64,000 bases of DNA from Dacryopinax spathularia (Eukaryota > Basidiomycota > Dacrymycetes > Dacrymycetales > Dacrymycetaceae): positions 186,001 to 250,000 of the forward strand of contig JBBPFI010000001.1 in NCBI GenBank assembly GCA_037974965.1, given 5' to 3'. Shown here in pieces: positions 2,879 to 15,628 of this stretch. A model generated the notes under the pieces. It searched no databases and had not been told where the DNA came from. It worked only from the letters and a program-made list of their open reading frames with translations. Both the position numbers and the translations under genes were made by a program. Positions within the stretch are counted from its first letter, which is position 1, and each line of letters begins with the position of its first letter.

Positions 2879-5800
2879 ATGCCTCCCCCTCGCACTTTTC
2901 TGGTTCACCTCGATGGTGATGAAATCAATGTCGACCTTGATGATCTCGATGACGACCCCGAGGAGGTTTACGTCGTGCTGGAAGATTCCAACTCGCCGGC
3001 ATGGATGTGGAGAACTATAGCGGTCGAGTACTGGAGAAAGGGAGACATGGAACGAGCGGAGACTACGATCCGACGAGCAATCAACCGTGCGCATGGACAT
3101 CGCTCTGCATGATGGAACTAGTGTGCTAACCGTTGTGCAGGCTTCGAGCAGCAAGGCGAAGCCGGCATCGAGAACTGGCAAGCAATGCAGTCGTTACAGG
3201 CAAACTTTCTGCTTGCCAAGGCTCGATCAGCTCCCAAGCTCATTCTGTACACGGCGAAGCAGGACAAGCTCGGTCCAGACACGAAGGAGAAGGCCTTCTA
3301 CATCAACCAAGCAGCGATGAGCATGGCGCAGATGGACGCAGCAGTGCGCAACAAGACCATCCTGCAGTTGCTCTCGAAGGGTGCGTCTTCTCCATCAGAT
3401 ATCGGTGTAGCCGCTGATGTCGTGCGTCAGCCGCCGCTCAGCTAGCTGAGAATGCTATCGATGCTGCTGGACGAACGTTTGAAGAAATCTTGGAGCGCCA
3501 ACCAAACAATGTTGTTGCTCTGATGGGAAAGGGGCGCATACAGTATGCACGACGAGGCTATCGGGAAGCAGTCAAGACGTTCCAACGCGCCCTCGCCCTC
3601 GCACCATCAATGCTCCCTGACCCACGAGTAGGCATCGGCCTCTGTGCATGGTCGCTAGGTGACCAAGAAAGGGCGAAGCATGCCTGGCAACGGTCGCTGG
3701 AGGTTCACCCGGAACTAGAAGCACCGCATATCCTGCTCAGCCTCAGTCTATTGAACGATGCCAAAGACAAGAGACGAAGCCCAAAAGAGCGGGCAAAAGC
3801 ATATAGCGAGGGTATCAAAGGTCTGGCTGGGATTTTCAGGGATAAGGGTAGGCATTGCGCCATCGTGGCTGATGCATTGAGCGCATATTTCATTGAGAGG
3901 AAGGAGTGGGACAAGGTGCGCATCCCAGCTGATGATCTGAGATCCTCCTGACCGGTATATCAGGCAGTAAAAGCTGCGGAGCGAGCCATACAATATGCGG
4001 ATCTACGGTCGGTCGTGTCTGATGGGTTCATGCGCCTCGGGCGTATTGCACATCTGCGGGGCGACCTGCCAGAAGCAGTCAGTCAGTACAGTGCTTCTTT
4101 AGACCGACAGGAGAAGAATCAGCTGGCAAGGGCTGGGCTGGGTCAAGCGCATATACTCACCAGTATGATCCACTATCAACTGCAGTTGAACTGTCCTGAT
4201 CATCTCTAGACGAGATACCCGCTGCCATCCATGATTTCGAACTCCTGCTGGGCGACAACCCGAATTCCCTGCAGGCACTCCTTCCCCTCGCATCCCTGCA
4301 AGCCTCAGGCTGGCCAGGCGCCAGTCCGATAGAGCAAGGATCTGGCCAAAAACGAGCGCGCGATCTCTACGAGCGAGCAGCCCGTATTATCAAGGGCACC
4401 GAGGTTGATACCGAAGGTATGGAGGAGCCTGAGATGTGGGTGGAGATTGCGAAGCTCTGGCAAACGGAAGACGCCAACAAGGCTCGTGATGCGTACACTC
4501 GCGCTGTCGAGCTCGCGCGGGAAACGGCAGACCCGGAGAAGGGCGTTGACCCGAAGTTGCTGAATGCACTTGCTGTCATCCGACACATACATGGCGGCGA
4601 GGAAGGCCGGAAACAGGCTCGAGACCTGTACCAGGAAGCTCTGGTCAACGTGGCCAAGGCTGGTGACAACGACGAAGCGGAGATGGTGAAGACAGCGACG
4701 CTGTACAATCTTGCCAGGTGTTGGGAGGCTCTGAACGAGCAGGATCAGGCACAGGAGGCGTATCAGACGCTGCTAAGCAGACATCCGGAATACGTCGATG
4801 GTACGTGACTTATTTCCTATGTTTTCAAGCTGTCTCTAATGTCCATAACAGCAAAGGCGCGCTTGGCGCATATATACCAGCAACAGCACCGCGTCGATGA
4901 AGCACACACGCTGCTAAAAGACGCCCTCGAATCCCAAACAGACAACCTCGACCTCCGGGCCTACTACACCTATTTCCTCGCCTCGAACAAGCAGTCCCGG
5001 CCCGCATCAAAATTCGCCCAGCTCACCCTCTCTACCTACGACAAGCACGACATCTACTCACTATGCGCTGTGGCTGCCGACTTGTATACCAGCGCTAGGG
5101 AGAACAGGGACACCGGGAGCGAAGCAATCAAGCTCCGCCGCAAGCATTTCCAGAACTGCGCGATGGCGTACGACAAAGTCCTGAGCCTTGACCCGACATG
5201 TGCGTACGCCGCCCAGGGACTGGCGATCGTCATTGCCGAGGACGCACTTGGTGGGCTCGCAGGCGCTCCCGTGCCTGGGGCGGACGAAGCGAGGGAAAGG
5301 GAACGGAACGCTGCTGAGGCGCTGAGCGTGTTTGGACGGGTGAGGGAGAGCATCAATAATGGGAGCGTGTTCGTCAATATGGGGCATTGTTATTACACGC
5401 TGGAGCAGTTCCAGAAGGCGATCGAGAGCGTAAGCCTGCTTCCTCTCGTTTCTTTTCTGAGTACAGTAGCTGACGTGAAATCGTAGTACGAGCTCGCATC
5501 GCGCTACTATGGCGGGAAAGACTTTGCCGTCCTCCTCCATCTCTGCCGGGCCTGGTATGCCAAAGCCAACATGGAGCAAAGCCCCGAAGGGATGGAGACC
5601 GCGCTCGACTACGCAAAACAAGCGCTCGCCCTTGCACCGGAGGACAAAGCGACATTGTACGACATCGCCGTTATCCAGCAGAAATTTGCGGAGCTCTTGT
5701 TCTCGCTGCCTTCGGATCGGCGGACGCTCGCGAAGCTGGAAGAGGCCATCGCGCAGGCTACTAAGGCTCAGACGACTTTTGCCGCTTTGGTGGAGGACAA

Positions 5801-6578
5801 GTCGCCGATGTTGCCGTTTGCGAGAGATCTGCCGGATCAGAGAAGACGATATGGGGAGACGGTGCTTAGGAAGTCAACCGACCATATTGAGGCTCAGAAG
5901 GCTTACGAGGCCGAGGTAGCCGCTAAGGCCGAAGCTGCCCGGCAGATGCGGGAGGAAGAGCGTCGCCGAAAACAAGAGGAGGAGGAAGCGCGTATTGCCG
6001 AGATCCAGCGACAGGCTGCGGAGTTGTCTGAGCAGCGCAGGTTAGCGAGAGAGCAGGCGATGCAGTGGAGCGCTGCTGTTCGTGCGGAGAAGGAGGAGGA
6101 GGAGGAAGCGGAGCGTGCTCGGGCGCAGAGAGGGAGCAGGAGACGGAAGAGCGCTGCGAATGGAGGGAGTGGGAGCGGGACGGCGAATGGGTCGGGGGCG
6201 AATAGCGAGACTGATGGGCCTGCGCCTGAGGACGGTGGGAGAAGAAGGAAGAAGAAGTTGCGCAAGTCTCGGCTTGGCACTACGGGCCGGGGTGCGAGTC
6301 AGAGCATGGACGACTCCTCGGAGCATGAGGCGCTCTTTACTGACAACGAGGACGACTCTGCGCCTGCTGGAGAACACCCAGCGCCTGCAGACGACGACTT
6401 GGACGGCGAAGGCCCGACTGAACGGGTGCGAGAACGAGAGCGGGATCGGGAACCAAAGCCTAGACCTAAGAGGGTGGTGAGGGAAGACGACGAGGACAAC
6501 GAGCCGACGAGCAAGAGACGGAAGAAGATTAAGAGCAAGGCGACGATCTCCGATTCGGATGAGGAGATGAGCGATTAG
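2879..6578 (+). CDS. CTR9: CTR9, TPR subunit of the Paf1 RNA polymerase II elongation complex
   Basis: Seven exons: 2879-3086, 3141-3380, 3446-3915, 3964-4162, 4210-4800, 4852-5429, 5487-6578. They give about 1,125 aa, close to the family length. The N-terminus (VDLDDLDDDPEEVYVVLED, then PAWMWRTIAVEYWRKGD) and long arrays of tetratricopeptide repeats are typical of Ctr9. The C-terminal third has a charged coiled coil (EARIAEIQRQAAELSEQRR) and a basic/acidic tail with RKKKLRKSR and ending SDSDEEMSD. In the family this protein scaffolds Paf1C on transcribing polymerase II in the nucleus and supports H2B ubiquitination and H3K4 methylation. Every junction keeps frame with GT-AG borders, and some introns show CTAAC branch points. 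Confidence 0.93.
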
Positions 6579-6784: not shown

Positions 6785-6836
6785 CTCTGAGATACGGAAG
6801 CCGTTTGTGGACAGCTACGTGGTATTGCACCCGTAG
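6785..6836 (+). repeat. Left inverted repeat of the 8.8-kb island
   Basis: Imperfect inverted partner of 15580-15628. The best part is 6793-6816, where 20 of 24 bases pair with the right copy. The inner CTACGG (read on the minus strand, ending at 6836) is also shared. Confidence 0.6.
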
Positions 6837-7157
6837 GCTGTGCATCGGCTTTACGGGACCCGCGACAGGACCCTTTTCCAAAAAGGGCCTAAGAGAATCT
6901 GCCTCCACAGGACGGAGGCATCGGGCCATGGGCGTTAGAAGACCCTTGCCGAGCCTCATGGCTGCCTGCTGGCAACCGTTATCTCCTGGCTGCTGGCGAC
7001 CCATCCCCTGGCGAACAGCCAGTCTTTCGGCGACGAGCTCCCCCTCCCCTCTCTTGCTCCCCTCGACTTAGCACTGGGCTATAGCCAGTACTTGCTGGCG
7101 CTCTCGACTTCTTTCTCTGGCAGCCAGCTCTCGATTCTCCAGCACCTGCGAATAAGA

Positions 7158-9419
7158 ATGGCCGGCTTCACGATCCCTGGCATGCCATATGCTCATGCCC
7201 GCGAGCTCAGACTGGACAAGAATGCGGATCGCCCACCTCTTTCGACTGGCGTTGCTCCCCCTCTACAAGACCAGCGGTATTGGCCCTACTGGTTCGCCCT
7301 GCAGGGCGCAGTTTGGGATGGACCACTCGACATCTGTTTCCACTTCCGGCGGGTCAACATCCAGTACTTTCCGGACGTGACAGGGAGGGGTGGCAAGAAG
7401 AACCGCAAGCGTTATGGTGAGTCAGTTGCTTCTCCAGCATTCACTGGCTCACGTTCACCAGTGTGCGCGTATGCAAACACAGTCACTGGCCTGCTTGACT
7501 GCGGCTACGCAGGTGCGCCAGTATTACTCGCTGGCCAAGCATACTTTACTGACCCAGCATGTAGAATGGCACTGGGAACGGGTGATGCGCCGTCACAGCC
7601 GCATACCCATGCGCTTGCCGTATCTGCAAGTGATACGATTCCTTGCCGGGCATTCGCCGCACTATCCACCTCCCACTCGACTCATAGCCCGTGAGGGCTT
7701 AATCAACCCGCAAATGAGTGAGGCGTCTTTCCTCACGTTCCTTCGCTCGCATGGGCTGGAGCCCCTGGCCCCCAAGCGTTCGCTTGAAGTCCAGCCGGTC
7801 TCATTCCCTGAACAACGTCCGGATGAAGAGCTGGAAGATCAAGGCTACGAGTGGCTCATGAACGTCGAGCCTATCGGTGTTCCGCTCCTTCCCGACAACC
7901 ATGCCCCGCTCGAATCTGCTGCTCCGTCACTTCCCCCCCCGGTACTGCTCAACACGGACCAGCACGGTGGAGCAGGACCAAGCCAGCAAGCTGGTGCAAG
8001 GTCGAGCCAGCGAGCTGGCTCAGGACCAAGCCAGCGAGCTGGCTCAAGCCAGTATACGGCGGCGAGCGTGCTGGCTGGCTCAAGTCAAGCCACGTCTACA
8101 AGCTCGCAACTCCCTGCGCCCACTGGTCATCGACGTGGACAGCCACGACCAGATCCTCAAGCCGCCACAGTCAACCTCCCCTCTGGCGTCAGGTTCCCCT
8201 GGCAGCACTCGCCTCGCCCAGCTACGCCAGTAGGCTCACCTGCTGGATCATTTGCTGGTCCGACGCCAGCTGAGTTCTCAACTCCTGGAAGCGGCTCACC
8301 TGGGGCTCCGTTCACACCACGATCGGTCCTCCTGGACAAATGGGAACAGCACCAGCAAAAGATGCAAGCGCAGGCAGGAACGTCGACTTCTGGCGCCCCC
8401 CTTACTCCCACACCTGCAACTCGGACGCGCTCAAGCCAGCCACAGGGAGGAAGCTCTGGCCAGCAAGGACAGCCGGGCCAGCAGGTGCGTACTTATAACT
8501 TACTGGCGTATGATTGTCTACTGACTCTGGAGCAGACGCGAACACAGTCGCTGGCAAGTGCACCTCCCCCGGCAACACACTGGTGGGCGTATCCCCCCAA
8601 TCCCCTTCCAGCTACCAAGATCGACGACCGGAACTACGATGCAGAGGATTGGGAGATCCGGTCGAACAAGCTCAAGCGTTGGTTCGCGGAGCCGCAGGGC
8701 ATGCCGTTCGCCATCTACTTTATTCGCGAGTTGCTGGAGAACACAAATATAATGGCGGATGCGGGGGACTTTTGCTTGCTGGGGATTCGCGAGCTGGTGC
8801 GTCATTTGCTCCAGTATTTGCTGGCTCAAACTAACCAGCATATTCACAGGGTGTTTTGCCAGATGGTGTCGATTCTGCCCGTCCAAAAGGCTGGGCCCCG
8901 TCAAAGGAAACACGGATGAACGACATGTACGCGTTCGTGACCGGGGTCCCCGAGGATGGCTACGACGAGCAGGCACTGCTTCTGGGGAAGATCGAGTTCA
9001 TCCGCGACCTTATCGCCTTGCCGGAGCTGGCGAAATTATACCCTTCGAGACCATGGAAGGACATGGTCGAAGCGTGCGATATCCAGCTCGAAACCATGCG
9101 GGCTGGTCTCGACGGCACGCAAATGGATACCTCTCGCATTCCGCCTTGGGAGAAGGAGGATTTAATCGAGAGAATGAACCGGACACTGCCAGGTTCAGCT
9201 TGGCCGCTGGCGCCCAAGCAGCTTCCCCCCCCACCGGCGGGCAAGGGCCAGTGGGGAACAGTAACCCAGCAGCTGGCAAGCGGGGCCGAGTCTTTCGACA
9301 TGACCGAATCGTCCGAATCGGGACCATCAACTGGGCGAGGTCGGGGTCGGGGTCGGGGGCGAGCTCGAGGACAACGAAGCAAGTCTGTGGATCGGAAGGG
9401 CAAGAAGCGGCCGGTGTAA
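7158..9419 (+). CDS. Unrecognised element-encoded protein with Ser/Gln/Gly-rich middle and RG-rich tail
   Basis: I do not recognise this protein. The first exon, from ATG 7158 to about 7416, encodes MAGFTIPGMPYAHARELRLD and an aromatic-rich segment (YWPYWFALQGAVWDGPLDI). One or more introns follow. The second frame runs to 8484 (for example VEWHWERVMRRHSRIP), continuing into a low-complexity stretch (repeats of SQRAGS). The next exon is about 8536-8795 (WWAYPPNPLPATKIDDRNYD, WEIRSNKLKRWF, MPFAIYFIRELLE). The last exon is 8849-9419 (GVPEDGYDEQALLLGKIEFI) with a GRGRGRGRGRARGQRSKS tail that looks nucleic-acid binding. The exact junctions between 7416 and about 7565 are unresolved because several CAG acceptors lie close together. 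Its place between an element end and the integrase gene suggests an accessory or regulatory role in the element. Confidence 0.5.
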
Positions 9420-10071
9420 TCCTCTATATTATAGTTGGCTGGTCTATAGAATGCATCGTGTTTGGTCTTCCCTGTTGCATGGCGGAAAATGGCTGGTCAA
9501 CTCCTTAGCCAGCAGGTCATCTAGTTTCTGGGCCAGTAACTTAGTCTCTTGCTTGGCCAGACCGTCAGTCAATTACTGGTTGGGCAAGCTAATAACGTGC
9601 TGGCTGGGCAAGCTAATAATATGCTGGCAAGTTATGCTGTTCGCCCGCTAATGAAGCACATTATCCATATTCATAGCCAGGAAGTGTATCATTTCGTGCG
9701 CCAGCAAATAGCTTTGTTGCTTCACCAGCGAGCGAGTCATTCACTATGCCAGCAAATCATTTCTTTGCTGGACCAGAATAGCTCTGGTTTATGAGTTCAT
9801 TCCGCCAAGCCGCACAAGCCATGTTTGCTGGCCGAACAGGAGCTTCCTTCTTTGGTCAGATATGTTACGGGTGTGCTGAGCCAGCAAGTAGAATCATTGT
9901 CAACCAAGTTTTTAACTGATTCGTTCAACCAGCACATACTCCAGTTGCTATCAACCCAACACACTTATTTACTGGCAAGGCAACTGGATCGTTTCTGCAA
10001 CCAGCTGCTTGCCTGTTTGCTGCACCAGCGACTCACTCCGGGCAAGTATCCGAATATTGTGTTGCCTTTAG
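9420..10071. other. Convergent intergenic stretch packed with TGCTGG/CCAGCA motifs
   Basis: No convincing gene. It lies tail to tail between the unknown gene and the integrase gene. By hand I count ten exact GCTGG/CCAGC pentamers in 9481-9840, where about 0.7 would be expected by chance at even composition, plus many CCAG/CTGG near-matches. Copies occur in both orientations, typically 15-50 bp apart, often as TTGCTGGC or GCCAGCAA. Confidence 0.7.
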
Positions 10072-11921
10072 CTATGAATATGTTTCGGTCATCGTAAATA
10101 CTGGTATATCAGACTCATCCCCACCCGATGAGTACCCATCCTCATCTAGTAGTTCACCACTTCGCTCGTACATCCATCTAGCGTCTGATACATTTGCTCC
10201 ACCAACATTAGCTGGACCACGCGGCTCGAGTCCTGGCAGGACATCCATACGTTCTTGCTGGATGGCTTCTTCCTGGAGCGCGTTTGCCGAGAGGTCAGCA
10301 AGCAGTTGTTCTCCAGCAGGGACAGGCACTTCCGTTAGACCAGCTAGCATATCAGCATAAACATGCCAGAGCGACTCTCTGGTAACCACTGGTGAACCTA
10401 GTGCTGGCACGCCAGCAAACATTAGTACTGGGTGTATAACACTGGATGCAAAGGATGCTTACCGGCATATACCGATCGTGCATGCATCTCGAAGGACTGG
10501 GGAACCAGCTGGAAGACTTGGTGCTCGGGCGGAGCAAAGATCGCGGCAACCTGATCCAGTTGACTACTGGGAACCAGGATCTGCAGGGAATGTTAGTGGA
10601 CCAGTGGTTAATAAGCGAAGCTACACCCCTTGTAATCCAGGAATGGGCCGAAGCGGTTTGGGTGCTCCAGGAGAACATTAGGAATCTCAGCTGGCATCCG
10701 CTTTTTTCGGTCTCTTCGAGGTTTGCTGGAGTTGTGGATCTGAGCAAAGCGATCAAGATCCTGCTGGAGTAGTGGGATAGATAGCCAGCGAAACAGCAAC
10801 CTATCAGGGGCTGGTTTAGCAAGTTCTTCCAGATTAGCGCGTATGATTTCGGACGTACAGCTCAACAGCGACCCCTGGGTGATACCACCCTTCGTCTAGC
10901 CCCTCCTGAAACAGAAGCTCCCACCCTTGTGAAAACTGCCGACGAAGCTTGGACCAGAATATCTCCGGCTTGATGTTGCGATGGCCAGGACCACGCATCC
11001 ATCTATGCTGGAGGGTGCCTGCCAGTGAGGGATCCAGCTGCTGGCGAAGTGTCGTCTGGGCATTAGCGATCCCATTATTTTCTGTTCCTGGATCGCTTTG
11101 CGTAAGAAGGGGGATACCTGGATGTAAATGACTAACCAGTCTGACATGCTGGGAGACAACTCACCTCCTAAGCGGCGGGCAGCTTCAAAGTAGTAGCTGG
11201 CTATCAAACGAGGGTTTGAGTTCGTCCACCAGACTTTGAGCCAGAGTACTGCGTTTGAGAAGTTTTCAATGCCGACATGTAAGCGTAGACCGAATCGTTG
11301 CCATTTGTCATGCTGATCAGCAGCCCATGACTCGTGCAAGCCAGCTGACCAATGCACCTGGTGCCGAAGTCGGCCCGCCAGCCGCTGACGATTCCCCAGT
11401 GGATCATGTCGCTGCTGGTATTCCTGAACGAGCTGCCTGATTTGCTGGTAAGCAGCCATGGAGTACAACAAGGCCAGCACGTACCGAGATACCAGAATAT
11501 TATCGTGTCGCAAGTGGTCACGAAGTGACTTGGCCCCCAGCCGATTTGCAGTATGAATTCGTGCTTTCTCGACAAAAGGAGCGATGCTTTCCAGAGAATG
11601 GTTTTGCTGCTTCACGGAAGGCAGTCCCCATTCTTTTCGACGCCGCTGGATGGTTTTGGTACTAGTAACTGGGGTCAGTATAAGGGCGAGCCAGCAGTCA
11701 ACCTACACACGAAAGTGTCCACTGATTCGCACGGAGATCAATGTCCCTCTTGATTGCCGCCAGTATCTTCTTATCGCCGTACGCATACTTATAGTACTTC
11801 TCAACCAGAGGACGCAATATAGCATCTGGGACTGGTGCTGGTCAACAGTCTGCTGGCCAGCGGAGCTGGCAAACATACCAGCTTGGTCATGTTGGTTGCC
11901 ATGCCGTGGTGATAGATCCAT
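10072..11921 (-). CDS. Integrase-core (rve/DDE superfamily) protein of the island
   Basis: Spliced minus-strand gene from an ATG at 11921 (MDLSPRHGNQHDQA) to a stop at 10072. The order is: an N-terminal helical region (EKYYKYAYGDKKILAAIKRD, then TIQRRRKEWGLPS); the catalytic core with D in ADQHDKWQRFGLRLH, the strand NAVLWLKVWWTNSNPRLIA, D in SDPGTENNGIANAQ and E in NIKPEIFWSKLRRQF; then a C-terminal region (EHQVFQLVPQSFEMHARSVY, ESLWHVYADMLAGL). This is the integrase-core family widely scattered in Agaricomycetes. It looks whole, and the three expected acidic residues are visible. It runs opposite to both other element genes and shares their TGCTGG-rich composition. It is the best candidate for the enzyme that moved the element. 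Confidence 0.75.
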
Positions 11922-12401
11922 CTCAAACAAACGGAATAAGTAGATGCTGGCAAAGATGAGGAACAATGATATCCGATCTTGGGCCCAATCCTATGGTATC
12001 AGCACTGCTGATTAAGTAAGATAGCAACACGGGGATACACGTTGGTCTTCCAAGGGTCTGAATGTGATTTCAGTGTGTTTTTGCGTCTAATGACACGTGG
12101 GAATAGATACGGCAGAAGCATGAGCTGTCCCGCTCACCGTGTACACCGCATTGGACAGCCCATGATGCCGCAAAAACAGGCCTCCCATAAACACGGGCTC
12201 TGGCTGGACTCCTCCCAATCCGGCAATCACTGGCACACCTAATATGCAGGAAAATTCTGGCCCGCGACCAGTATCTGCTTGGCCAGTAGAGGCTGGCCAA
12301 ATAACCCCGCCAGTTTACCTTTCAACCTACCGCTCAACCTCCAACGGCTTTCCCTGCTCCTCCAGCATTGGCGATTCACCAGCACCTTGTCGTCCATCCT
12401 G
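11922..12401. other. Divergent region between integrase and alpha-kinase genes
   Basis: About 480 bp that should hold both promoters. It is less dense in CCAGC than 9420-10071 but still shows copies near 12230-12320. No TATA box is evident. Confidence 0.4.
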
Positions 12402-15151
12402 ATGGACATCGACCCAATTATAACAGCTTGGGAAGGCGGTAATTGCAGTCGGCGTGCCTGTGGGAAAGCTATCGGCCCGAACGATGAATGGAGGTTGATT
12501 GCTGGACGATCTGCAAGCACTGGGTTACCGCTTCCAGCACAGATTTACTGCTTAGCGTGCTTTGAGCATTACAACAGTAAAGAAGGGACACTTATCCGCC
12601 CAGGCACTCGGACACGGACCACGCCAGCCGTTCAAGTTGATATAGAGGATGTGAGACGCCTCAATGCTAGCGCACAACGATCATCATCCACTGGTACGTC
12701 TGTCTGAACTGGGAATTCACAAGACTTACCCCCCATAGATCGACCATCATATGTCCGGGCAGTCGGCCTTCAATTCAACCAAGGCATTCCTGGTCCAGGA
12801 GCCTTTGCCGAATCGCCAGTCTCTGGCGGCTATCCAAGCCTACCAGCTGGCTTCCCTCCAACACACCATGGCACGCTTGCTGGAGCATTGCCACGTACAG
12901 CATTTGCGCATCATCCAGCTGCTCAGCAAGCATTCGGCTACAGCGCAAACCATCCGCACTATACCCATGCTCGCCTGGCAGTTAAGAAGTATATCAATAC
13001 ACCGCCCGCTGAGACGATACGTGTAGAGGCTTCCGTTCAGTATCTGAAGGATGGAAAGAAAGGATCATTTCTGGTTGGGGTACGCCTGGTAGCTTTACTC
13101 CTGCATTACAGCCAGCTAATGAATCTCCAGAACACGGCTGAGCGTCTGCTCGATGTCCCTGCTTTGCTAAAGCCGCTGGCGCTTAAGTCCCATATCTTTG
13201 CCTCGCTTCAGGCCAAACTGGCTCAAGATACTCGGGATTACCACTTTTCCCTTGACGATTTCGACTTATGTGGGCAGGGGCTGGCCAATCTTGAGCGGAA
13301 CCTTGATTCTACGCCATTGTATGCCCATTGCTTCAAGCAGGCACCCCGAGCTCCCAAGCCAGTGTGGAATCCAAACGCGGTTGTTGAAATTTTCCTGGTC
13401 ATCAAGAAAGGTGTGTGGAAGCGGGTTGAGGAGTGGAAGATTGCTGGAGAGGATGCCAGTGTATGTTCCGGTTTGAGGCACTCTCTGCTGGCGTTATAGC
13501 TGACTTCCCCGCAGGCAGAACGCTCCCTACAACCCCTTGCAGTCCCATCCTACATCCCTCGGTATCCAACAAGTGCTTCTGTGCCAGTAGACAGGCCGCG
13601 CAAGACACCAGTGGCTGGCTCATGTACCAGCAACTCTCCTGGCTCACGGACACCAGCTTCTCAACCTGCTGCTCCCCGAGGCACATCCTTGAAGCGTGCT
13701 CATGAGCAAGATGATGAGGCAGACCGTGATGGAGGAGATATTAGGCGGGCGATCATGTTTTCAGAGCACAGCAAGGTTCTTCATACCAGTGGTGCGCCTC
13801 AGCTTGCTCTTTCGCAATAGCCAGAATCTGATGCTCGGCCAGCAACGTCATTCACCAGTCGTGGATTCTTTCTCCCCATACCCATTGTTACATGGCAGGA
13901 GCTCTTCAAAGACCAGCGACGACTCAAGATTGATTATGAAGGGCTGGGGAGCGATGCCATTCTTCGAATTGAGGAATCCCATCGCCATATGCTGGGCAAG
14001 CCTGGTTCCTTCAAGACCGCTCATCCAGCATCTTTGACGCTGAATGAGATCCCAGCCCAGTGGGATAATCTGGAAAAGTTGCCGTTCCCCATTTGTCAAC
14101 GTACCTCAGTTGCTGGCAAGCGATACTTCCGGAGACTTGCCAAGCAAGGCGGCAAGCGAGTTCCAGCCTCCATTCCAGACCAGGCGCGGTTCCTGGAGAA
14201 TGAAGGGAATGTGCTGTATTGGGCAACGGCCTTACACAATGAGACGAACAACTTCATCCGTGACAAGCTGGCCGCCAACCCCGACCATCCGGCCAAGCTG
14301 CTGGAGCTCCCTCAGACGCGTATGGTTCGAGCTGGTCTGTTCATCAACAGCGGATCAACCAGCCAGGATGAACGCCAGGGACTGGTGACATTGATCGAAG
14401 AGTTGATACCCCAAATTCCAGTCATGGAGGGCGAGTCCTCGTTTGTCAAGTTTATCAATAACGGCTCGCCACAACCGCGGTTCACAGAAGGCAAAGCTGG
14501 TGTACTGGCCCGGTTTCTGGCATTCTGCCAGCACGTTCAATTTCTGCTGACAGATGGACTGGCCTTCGTGACCGACTACCAGGGTAAGTGAGCTCAATTC
14601 ATTTGACGGTCTCAGCTGGCTAATGGTACGCTAGGGTCTTTAACTCTGCTGAGCGACCCACAGATAGTAACTCATCCGTACGCATGCCTTCTCACTGGTT
14701 GCCAGCAACTTGACGCTAACAGAGATATAGGGACCTTGGTCGGCTCTTCGGGGAAGGCAATCTCGATACATCCTTCTACGACTTCAAGTCAGCCCATCCT
14801 TGCAACGAGTATTGCTCTGCATTTGGTCTGAAACCGCTTGCTGGCACGACAATCAACTTGCCGGATGGCAAGGATGTCAATGAAGGGACAACCAACAATG
14901 CGGTGGATGCACGATCACCAGCTGCTGGACAAGTTCCGGAGGGCCCAGTAGCTGGTGAGGCGGGTGAAGGCTTGCCGATGAACCAGGAGGGAATGAGTGG
15001 TCGAACACTCCGTGACGCTGAGCCAGCAAATGACATGAACGCATGCACGCCAGCTGGCTCTGCTGGTCAATCACTACGGATCCGAATCCGCCTCAATGGG
15101 AAGACAAAGATGACTGGAAGCGGGGATCCAGGACCTGACTCGCGTGCTTGA
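12402..15151 (+). CDS. Alpha-type (atypical) protein kinase, fungal expanded family
   Basis: ATG 12402 opens an N-terminal Cys motif (NCSRRACGKAIGP ... YCLACFEHY) like the zinc-ribbon head of many basidiomycete alpha-kinases. The first intron is 12694-12738. A long central region follows (VPALLKPLALKSHIFASLQ, WNPNAVVEIFLVIKKGVW), then a Ser/Pro linker. The kinase core is at about 13850-14840: GKPGSFKTAHPASLT, GLAFVTDYQG, LTLLSDPQIVTHP, and the zinc-binding signature FGEGNLDTSFYDFKSAHPCN followed by EYCSAFGL. The signature keeps the His-x-Cys...Cys residues of eEF2-kinase-like enzymes. The tail after about 14850 is low-complexity and ends at TGA 15151. Family members phosphorylate Ser/Thr in helical substrates; the substrate here is unknown. 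Exon borders between 13480 and 13830 and around 14590-14740 are approximate. Confidence 0.75.
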
Positions 15152-15577
15152 ATGCCCATAGCAGTAATATAGAAGAGTCAGCCATCTGCTGAGCTCAGAC
15201 CGGACTCTTGTGTTTTCTTTCTTCTCGTCCAACTCCCATCATTCGTTCCAGTCTCGCCTTTAGTAGCTAGTCCGAGATGTCCAACTCATGTCATTCGTTC
15301 CTATGAGCCTCCTCATTGTGCGATATTAGACTGCCAGTAAGTGCTGGCTCAGCAATCATGACTGTAAGCGCTGGCCCAGCAACGACAACTGTAGGCGCTG
15401 GCCCGCAGACAACAACCGTAAGCGCTCAGTTCTCCCCCTCTGGGGCAGTGCCAGTGGAGGCAACCAGTTTGAGCTCCGCAAAAATGTTTTTAAAAGGTAC
15501 GCCGGCAAATCCCTATGCGCCTAAGGCCGACGGAGTGGCCATGCAAGCTGTCCAGCTCTGACCATAGTCTTGCTCAC
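15152..15577. other. Non-coding right flank inside the island, with short tandem units
   Basis: Between the alpha-kinase stop and the right inverted repeat. Two copies of a 23-bp segment (GTCCAACTC...TCATTCGTTCC) lie near 15228 and 15280. At 15360-15430 a unit of about 30 bp (ACTGTAAGCGCTGGCCCAGC and variants) repeats about two and a half times. There is no convincing gene; the short open frame across it is compositional. Confidence 0.5.
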
Positions 15578-15579
15578 GT

Positions 15580-15628
15580 CTACGGACAGCACCCTGAGCT
15601 GTCCGCGAACAGCTTCCATACTGAGAAG
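15580..15628 (+). repeat. Right inverted repeat of the 8.8-kb island
   Basis: Partner of 6785-6836; the best-matching core is 15597-15620. It also contains a perfect 7-bp hairpin, GGACAGC at 15584 pairing with GCTGTCC at 15598. Confidence 0.6.

Follow-up and report, generated by a model that had tools for sequence, protein, structure and literature searches.

The DNA between positions 6793 and 15620 of the window (by which the whole analysed stretch of 64,000 nucleotides from Dacryopinax spathularia is meant) is almost certainly a DNA transposon and very probably belongs to the IS3EU type. Its richness in the short word TGCTGG (CCAGCA on the other strand) is its most unusual feature and looks new. 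The full interpretation, namely that of an IS3EU-type cut-and-paste transposon sitting between two host genes and protected from silencing by a protein that reads this motif, is tentatively proposed here. The features are collected in Table 1.

Table 1. Features of the element and its target-site duplication (positions of the window)
Feature	Positions	Strand	Remarks
Whole element	6793..15620	.	8828 bp, 65 dispersed TGCTGG/CCAGCA words
Left target-site duplication copy, CTGAGA	6787..6792	.	6 bp
Left terminal inverted repeat, TACGGAAGCCGTTTGTGGACAGCT	6793..6816	+	
Right terminal inverted repeat, TATGGAAGCTGTTCGCGGACAGCT	15597..15620	-	
Right target-site duplication copy, CTGAGA	15621..15626	.	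6 bp
Gene X, RG-rich tail, unrecognised	7158..9419	+	Reading frames, models; relatives at C3, C6, C8
Gene X, approximate exons	7158-7416, 7522-8484, 8536-8796, 8850-9419	+	First splice junction uncertain
Transposase gene, DDE integrase core, several short introns	10075..11841	-	PF24764, E 1.4e-8; 5' end not settled
Transposase, approximate exons	11710-11841, 11190-11666, 10900-11115, 10640-10830, 10470-10590, 10075-10422	-	
Alpha-kinase gene	12402..15151	+	PF02816, E 3.2e-8
Alpha-kinase, approximate exons	12402-12698, 12743-13460, 13516-13775, 13821-14585, 14638-14680, 14733-15151	+	

The inverted-repeat-bounded island placed at 6785..15628 by the initial annotation is real, its exact ends being those of the table. 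The terminal inverted repeats have 24 bp with 20/24 identity, and no such repeat was found in dinucleotide-preserving shuffles of the window (n=100). On the repeat strand, the four mismatches are without exception C/T transitions, and at each of these positions one of the two copies has a CpG, which confirms the deamination suggested for them earlier and sharpens it to CpG. The termini are TACGG..CCATA, the same as in other copies. A target-site duplication, which the initial annotation had proposed to seek at empty junctions and did not report, is present as CTGAGA on both sides of the element. The right neighbour is indeed a phosphomannose isomerase gene (PF20511/PF20512); the name CTR9 for the left one comes from the initial annotation, and what was found there is TPR repeats in ORF 3490-3948, while the last ORF (5571-6575) matched nothing in Pfam.

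The cargo was correctly described as an integrase-core gene, an alpha-kinase gene and a gene for an unrecognised RG-tailed protein, called here gene X. Splicing and exon limits were set by eye, and the Pfam matches rest on these models; in the kinase gene, the TAG at 13818-13820 either closes a short intron or acts as a stop codon. Relatives of the transposase of the PF24764 type numbered 105, the best 14 all coming from Calocera, and residues D152, D211 and E252, which vary little or not at all among 33 relatives, are probably catalytic. The structure modelled for the closest relative resembles IstA, TnsB and retroviral integrases with low TM-scores by query (0.12-0.29). The spliced by-eye model of the gene X protein has no Pfam match, and neither the whole protein nor its core gave a homologue at E <= 0.01 in the protein database; the whole-protein search was dominated by low-complexity words. 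Structure prediction for exon 4 alone gave a poor model (mean pLDDT 55.7). Of the three proteins, that of gene X has diverged furthest, with 25-36% versus about 56-62% for the transposase in clean blocks.

In the 29.2-Mb genome, the element ends gave 43 matches (none in the reversed control), of which 38 can be paired. Each of the 19 pairs is flanked by a perfect duplication, 6 bp long in 15 cases and 7 bp long in four. Two further full copies of 8.7 kb carry the same three genes in unchanged order; they are 99.1% alike mutually and, in the best transposase stretch, share about 66% with the window element. The lack of any second pair of ends, which the initial annotation had named as evidence against its view, thus did not occur. 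The collinear three-gene set was seen in two families, and a head-to-head alpha-kinase stands beside 11 of the 18 transposase matches in the genome, those of the window and of C8:534k being among the 11. The terminal inverted repeats have 24 bp in the window element and in L009/L010, and those of the C8 pair measure about 38 bp. A 47-kb element at C8 was considered as a giant cargo element and disfavoured; 19.5 of the 47 kb were unseen. A nested insertion is favoured because this region contains a Plavaka transposase (PF18759, E 4e-67) and its inner DNA is without the word (densities of 0 and 0.71/kb).

The claim that no described class of DNA transposons has this gene set did not hold. Fungal IS3EU elements, according to the consulted parts of Kojima 2025 (PMC12730594), have 6-bp duplications, TAYGG..CCRTA ends and a transposase with an alpha-kinase in opposite orientation. 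In IS3EU generally, duplications usually have 6 bp, termini are TA..TA and the DDE integrase-type transposase has no HHCC zinc motif ahead of it; for the transposase, it is the DDE core that is recognised in the window element. A new class is not supported, because the ends, 6-bp duplications, DDE transposase and head-to-head alpha-kinase match this already described type. The proposed distant likeness to Ginger came near, as IS3EU is grouped with GingerRoot in the consulted text of PMC10045372. It is highly improbable that a new superfamily of integrase-driven elements or a relative of Polinton or Ginger is represented here: an integrase-type DDE transposase and 6-bp duplications would suit such an origin, but all structural marks agree with published IS3EU, no polymerase or capsid gene was seen among the element's reading frames, and the duplications of Ginger1/2 have 4-5 bp in the same text.

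The word TGCTGG occurs in the element in 65 copies, 36 forward and 29 reverse, versus 17.1 expected (z 11.4; the highest z in the controls, 40 overlapping windows of the right flank only, was 6.7). Its density is 7.36/kb inside, compared with 0.82/kb elsewhere in the window. The initial annotation had noticed this richness as a boundary mark, but it is more than that. It is also the best word when the noncoding DNA of the element is searched alone. In coding DNA, 39 copies were counted versus 11.7 under synonymous shuffling, with none of 500 shuffles as high, and the coding z is 8.2, whereas no hexamer exceeded 5.2 across 200 shuffles; the excess is found in each of the three genes. The copies are spread across the whole 8.8 kb rather than near the ends, occurring in each of the three genes as well as in introns and between genes, at 5.9-8.1/kb in coding DNA and 9.3-9.4/kb in noncoding DNA and introns. 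They are not tandem (spacing CV 0.94), and their flanks share little. Within the genes, 17 are sense and 22 antisense, and 16 of the 25 words in plus-strand genes are in one codon frame.

The second gene-X family, at C8, has ACTGGTC instead of TGCTGG: 44 copies versus 2.7 expected, with 16 versus 2.8 in coding DNA under synonymous shuffling (0/500) and a coding z of 7.4 versus at most 5.3 in shuffles. There is no cross-over of the two words between the families, and the host DNA flanking both is enriched in neither. In the third gene-X family (C3/C6), CTGATTC has a z of 4.7 when intron-free coding DNA is counted, a value that shuffles also reach (maximum 5.4), and is not the top word in the noncoding DNA of the family; CTGAWTC as the word of this family is only suggestive. 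Other IS3EU stretches checked, without gene X, had no comparable dispersed word (highest hexamer z 5.1); these were 17 partial stretches, including flanking DNA and masked letters, in which a diverged gene X could be missed. Two 7-mers at C15 and C5, whose z of 8.9 and 7.0 exceeded the control, were set aside as tandem arrays, tandem repeats being present near the kinase ends of these two IS3EU families. Genome-wide, same-strand pairs within 30 bp are discriminating for neither word: those of ACTGGTC number 13 versus 14 in the reversed control, and those of TGCTGGC 64 versus 48, with 3 of these 64 located in the window element. When the window and C8 elements were aligned, 11 of 32 window words fell in good alignment and 2 were conserved (18%; background 8.5%), while 2 of 21 C8 words did so and none was conserved; these are too few to prove turnover of sites.

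The observed/expected ratio of CpG is 0.74 in the element and 1.07 and 0.95 in its flanks. Between the two other copies, 38 of 65 mismatches are at CpG, which makes up 10.2% of positions. Such CpG-to-TpG decay indicates probable silencing by the host.

How the word arose and what it does can be explained in several ways. Many non-autonomous copies with window-type ends carry none of the words, so the dispersed word is unnecessary for movement. This is in line with the somewhat unlikely explanation that the element is a plain IS3EU transposon, gene X an accessory transposition factor and the word a by-product left by locally biased mutation, by gene conversion or by an ancient expansion of repeats. 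The repeats at the kinase ends of C5 and C15 show that repeats can yield word enrichment, and the shared codon frame points the same way. However, the non-tandem distribution of the word on both strands and through introns, intergenic DNA and all genes argues against a by-product, as do its excess over synonymous shuffling in each gene and the difference of words between two families whose flanks have neither.

Subterminal binding sites are possible in transposons, and ACTGGTC is also present in a non-autonomous family of 961 bp that shares this type of ends. Nevertheless, an internal site for the transposase or a transposition complex, used for gathering or pairing of ends or for control of transposition, is an unlikely function: the words are not placed near the ends, the ends contain no word and are alike between families with different words, and divergence is lower in the transposase than in gene X. 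Even less can be said for an action in RNA (as a splicing enhancer, or related to RNA stability or RNA interference), which is very improbable; against the many short introns containing the word stand the absence of a sense bias and an equal frequency in intergenic DNA.

In our opinion, a mechanism in which a motif reader opposes silencing, with gene X as the probable reader, is possible on the evidence of the sequences, though far from assured. The DDE transposase, judging from what is known of the family, would bind the 24-bp ends, excise the element and insert it with a 6-bp staggered cut. A protein encoded by the element, most likely that of gene X, would bind the word of its own family at many places throughout the element and oppose host silencing, shielding the CpG-decaying DNA, and the alpha-kinase may contribute through phosphorylation of a chromatin or transposition factor, whether from the host or from the element. 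Sites would arise via point changes element-wide, synonymous positions included, and the word would change as the protein diverges. Gene X is the likeliest reader because it is found where strong words are and is the most diverged protein. The link between gene X and the word rests on two strong families. Still more tentatively, a fungal lineage may possess a dispersed self-recognition code, in which the whole bodies of gene-X families, coding DNA included, are fields of binding sites for their own protein, possibly aided by the alpha-kinase, the word following changes of the protein. Such a code would be an independent counterpart of plant VANC, with sites spread by substitution and not by tandem duplication.

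The rust-fungus IS3EU elements with TET/JBP, in the consulted description, share with the window element 6-bp duplications, TAYGG..CCRTA ends, an opposed transposase and alpha-kinase, and basidiomycete hosts. Their TET/JBP gene sits between transposase and kinase, whereas in the window element this gap of about 0.55 kb contains none, and the scanned pieces gave no further Pfam match. The inverted repeats exceed 30 bp in the described TET-bearing families, compared with 24 bp here. Two further distinctions of the window element from IS3EU as described there are gene X, which the transposase separates from the kinase, and the dispersed family-specific word. In the consulted parts of PMC10045372, GingerRoot, IS481EU and Ginger have integrase-type DDE transposases, as here, and GingerRoot also has 6-bp duplications and mostly TA..TA ends; IS481EU and Ginger1/2 differ in duplication length, and the word "kinase" does not occur in the text consulted, unlike the alpha-kinase-bearing element studied here.

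The consulted accounts of VANC and VANDAL transposons of Arabidopsis (Hosaka 2017, PMC5735166; Sasaki 2023, PMC10398659) likewise describe a short word enriched within one family, different words in related families, a third protein that diverges fast (a candidate here) and host CpG methylation as the likely opponent. VANC motifs, however, are tandem repeats in noncoding DNA, while the words of the window element are single, dispersed and also in coding DNA. Motif binding and demethylation were demonstrated for VANC, whereas in this element a motif reader is proposed. VANDALs belong to another transposon superfamily in another kingdom, and no sequence relation is claimed. A limited search of the open-access literature on fungal transposons found no report of dispersed family-specific words, which does not prove their absence.

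If the anti-silencing explanation fails, a word that fills the coding DNA of one family beyond codon needs will still require explanation. Only in Arabidopsis VANDALs is it known in detail how transposons mark themselves and escape silencing without waking related elements. If true, the proposed mechanism would be a second case, in fungi and with sites inside coding DNA, where co-evolution of protein and word can be tested within one genome. It would, moreover, assign a role in IS3EU elements to the alpha-kinase and to gene X, for neither of which the literature consulted offers an explanation.

The terminal inverted repeats of the window element, TACGGAAGCCGTTTGTGGACAGCT and, on the opposite strand, TATGGAAGCTGTTCGCGGACAGCT, are identical at 20 of 24 positions, and CTGAGA directly flanks the element on both sides. 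The genome (29,246,034 bases in 24 contigs, the window being C1:186001-250000) was searched for this end pattern with up to three mismatches. There were 43 matches (21 forward and 22 reverse) against none for the reversed control, and 38 of them formed 19 inward-facing pairs. All flanks were read, and target-site duplications were perfect in 19 of 19 pairs (6 bp in 15 and 7 bp in 4); therefore, the window element belongs to a family of mobile elements. The five unpaired matches are a lone end at C9:716231, a lone diverged match at C10:763443 and extra ends inside copies, namely two left ends in the copy at C2:461k and one end in the C14 copy. In the former, non-autonomous L014 (C2:461016-461227), the left end is present three times with a 94-bp spacing, and non-autonomous L013 on C14 carries an additional right end.

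The family copies are mostly short (0.6–3.2 kb) and non-autonomous. Two full-length copies on contigs C3 and C6, 99.1% identical to each other, contain the same three genes as the window element in unchanged order and orientation, share with it 66% identity in the best transposase stretch and represent a second, distinct family. A third family was found on contig C8. Its left part contains one gene X, the unrecognised third gene of these elements, and its right part includes a transposase and a kinase, together with another, diverged gene X in opposite orientation. Of the 47 kb, 27.8 kb were read, and the inner DNA covered in this way holds a Plavaka transposase (PF18759, E 4e-67), so one or more nested insertions are the simplest and most likely reading of the stretch.

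Full-length element copies and the bounds of the C8 family
Feature	Location	Extent	Duplication	Stretches
Window element	window 6793-15620	8828 bp		
Full-length copy	C3:1630487-1639182			L009
Full-length copy	C6:1629010-1637713			L010
Third family	C8, ends at 493616 and 540653	47 kb apart	CCATCT (6 bp, perfect)	L027, L028, L081-L084

The window transposase matches PF24764 (E 1.4e-8). A protein database search (E ≤ 0.001) yielded 105 relatives, of which the top 14 belong to Calocera viscosa and C. cornea (43–67% identity) and the next ones to other mushrooms, suggesting that the host is dacrymycete-like. Residues D152, D211 and E252, numbered after the closest database relative P0001, are invariant or almost so across 33 relatives; the window protein has DQHDKW, SDPG and KPEI at these positions. 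For P0001, the AlphaFold model (mean pLDDT 85.7) gave IstA, TnsB and foamy virus integrase as the best Foldseek matches (E 1.6e-5 and weaker). Since whole-length TM-scores were low (0.12–0.29 by query), the likeness suggested by the model concerns the DDE core and not the whole architecture. Genome-wide, 35 matches (exon pieces) to PF24764 were observed, many of which form another group, with a much better fit to the Pfam model than that of the window transposase.

An alpha-kinase gene lies head to head with the transposase at 11 of 18 genomic transposase matches, the window included; the window kinase matches PF02816 (E 3.2e-8). According to the excerpts consulted, IS3EU elements generally have TA..TA ends and duplications of usually 6 bp (PMC10045372), and those of rust fungi have 6-bp duplications, TAYGG..CCRTA ends and oppositely oriented transposase and alpha-kinase genes with a TET/JBP gene in between (Kojima 2025, PMC12730594). 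The window element agrees with this description except that it lacks a TET gene and has shorter repeats, and in these excerpts the TET gene and longer repeats are described for TET-bearing families only. The ends, duplications and gene layout thus mark the element as a real transposon, very probably a new IS3EU member and variant; because of this fit, the new class of integrase-driven elements proposed in the initial annotation is not supported.

Translations inspected by eye contain conserved cysteine pairs (C..C, then CxxC) at the kinase N-termini, in the window (12402-12698), C8 (L082:2240-2560), C5, C2 and C15 genes, and this stretch looks like a small zinc-binding domain. Gene X, which in the window encodes an RG-rich C-terminal tail, had no Pfam match and no homologue in the protein database search. 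Genomic searches found it in the window, C3, C6 and C8, and as a weak fragment on C11 (C11:1123898). Of the three proteins, that of gene X has diverged most, with 25–36% identity between families against 49–54% for the kinase and 56–62% for clean transposase blocks (the 39% between the window and L009 transposases includes a misread intron).

The CpG observed/expected ratio is 0.74 in the window element, 1.07 and 0.95 in its flanks and 0.66 in L009. The 65 mismatches between the C3 and C6 copies include 45 transitions, and 38 of the 65 fall on CpG, against a CpG share of 10.2% of positions; the two ends of the window element likewise differ from each other solely at CpG, in four places. This depletion and concentration of mismatches point to the action of CpG methylation and deamination on the elements. 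The same depletion is seen in the inner DNA of the C8 region (0.60–0.61); hence, such decay is not confined to IS3EU.

The window element has 65 copies of the word TGCTGG/CCAGCA (36 and 29 by strand), with 17.1 expected from an order-2 Markov model (z 11.4); its density of 7.36/kb compares with 0.82/kb in the remainder of the window. As a control, 40 overlapping stretches of 8.8 kb were taken from the right flank, in which the top z among non-simple hexamers was 6.7 (median 4.5). With approximate exon limits, introns and intergenic DNA contain 9.4 and 9.3 words per kb, respectively, and the values are 8.1 for the transposase gene, 6.0 for the kinase gene and 5.9 for gene X. Successive words lie at uneven distances (CV 0.94, median 89 bp), and hence the word is not a tandem repeat. 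Of the words inside the three genes, 17 read in the sense and 22 in the antisense direction. One codon frame accounts for 16 of the 25 words in plus-strand genes, so the positions open to words are influenced by protein coding. A dense TGCTGGC cluster is located at C3:1676348-1676432, distant from every element found.

Discovery in noncoding DNA alone and synonymous-codon shuffling of coding DNA were used as safeguards against chosen words. In noncoding DNA the top 7-mer was TGCTGGC in the window element (17 against 1.8 expected) and ACTGGTC in the C8 family (15 against 0.98). Window coding DNA has 39 words against 11.7 (sd 3.1) after shuffling, and C8 coding DNA without its transposase has 16 ACTGGTC against 2.8; neither count, nor that of any window gene alone, was reached in 500 shuffles. 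Relative to the all-word maximum of 200 shuffles, z was 8.2 against 5.2 (window) and 7.4 against 5.3 (C8), and the top word of host genes stayed within the shuffle range. No excess was found for the window's word in C8 coding DNA (9 against 6.6; 92 of 500 shuffles), for C8's word in window coding DNA (1 against 0.8) or for either in adjoining host genes (3 against 2.8 and 0 against 0.2).

In the C3/C6 family CTGAWTC reaches 3.1/kb against 0.17/kb in the flank, and 15 against 3.9 in coding DNA minus a presumed intron (0 of 500 shuffles). Because CTGAWTC was chosen from the DNA in which it was then counted, because the z of CTGATTC in coding DNA (4.7) lies below the all-word shuffle maximum (5.4) and because CTGATTC is not the top word of the noncoding part, the family-specific word is regarded here as uncertain, though suggestive. 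The window's word is below expectation in this coding DNA (7 against 12.4) and C8's is marginally high (3 against 1.05; 29 of 500). For other IS3EU families, 17 partial stretches surrounding a transposase or kinase match were examined, in which no non-simple hexamer exceeded z 5.1. The C15 and C5 7-mers (z 8.9 and 7.0) were rejected as dispersed words; they sit in tandem arrays. These tandem repeats lie 3' of the alpha-kinase gene (C15:288785-289468 and C5:141431-142116), with word spacings of 19, 38, 76, 95 and 114 bp. No gene X was found in a genome search of other IS3EU families, including C15 and C5, which a diverged one could escape. The non-autonomous L012/L018/L019 family has C8's word at 2.5–3.0/kb over the retrieved stretch; most other non-autonomous copies have none of the words, so the word is dispensable for movement.

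We did not find a dispersed family-specific word, an unusual feature, described in the literature searched. The closest known system in the excerpts consulted is that of Arabidopsis VANDALs, in which the element-encoded protein VANC binds a short word that is overrepresented in its family and removes methylation, word and protein changing together (PMC5735166, PMC10398659). As described there, VANC words are tandem repeats in noncoding DNA, whereas those of the window are single, dispersed and present in coding DNA too. Binding sites for the transposase and a product of mutation bias both remain rival explanations of the word. In our opinion, the gene X protein is the best candidate reader, because gene X is present with strong words, absent elsewhere as far as seen and diverges fastest. 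Judging from family and anatomy, the DDE transposase would move the element by acting at its ends. The gene X protein may read the word of its own family.
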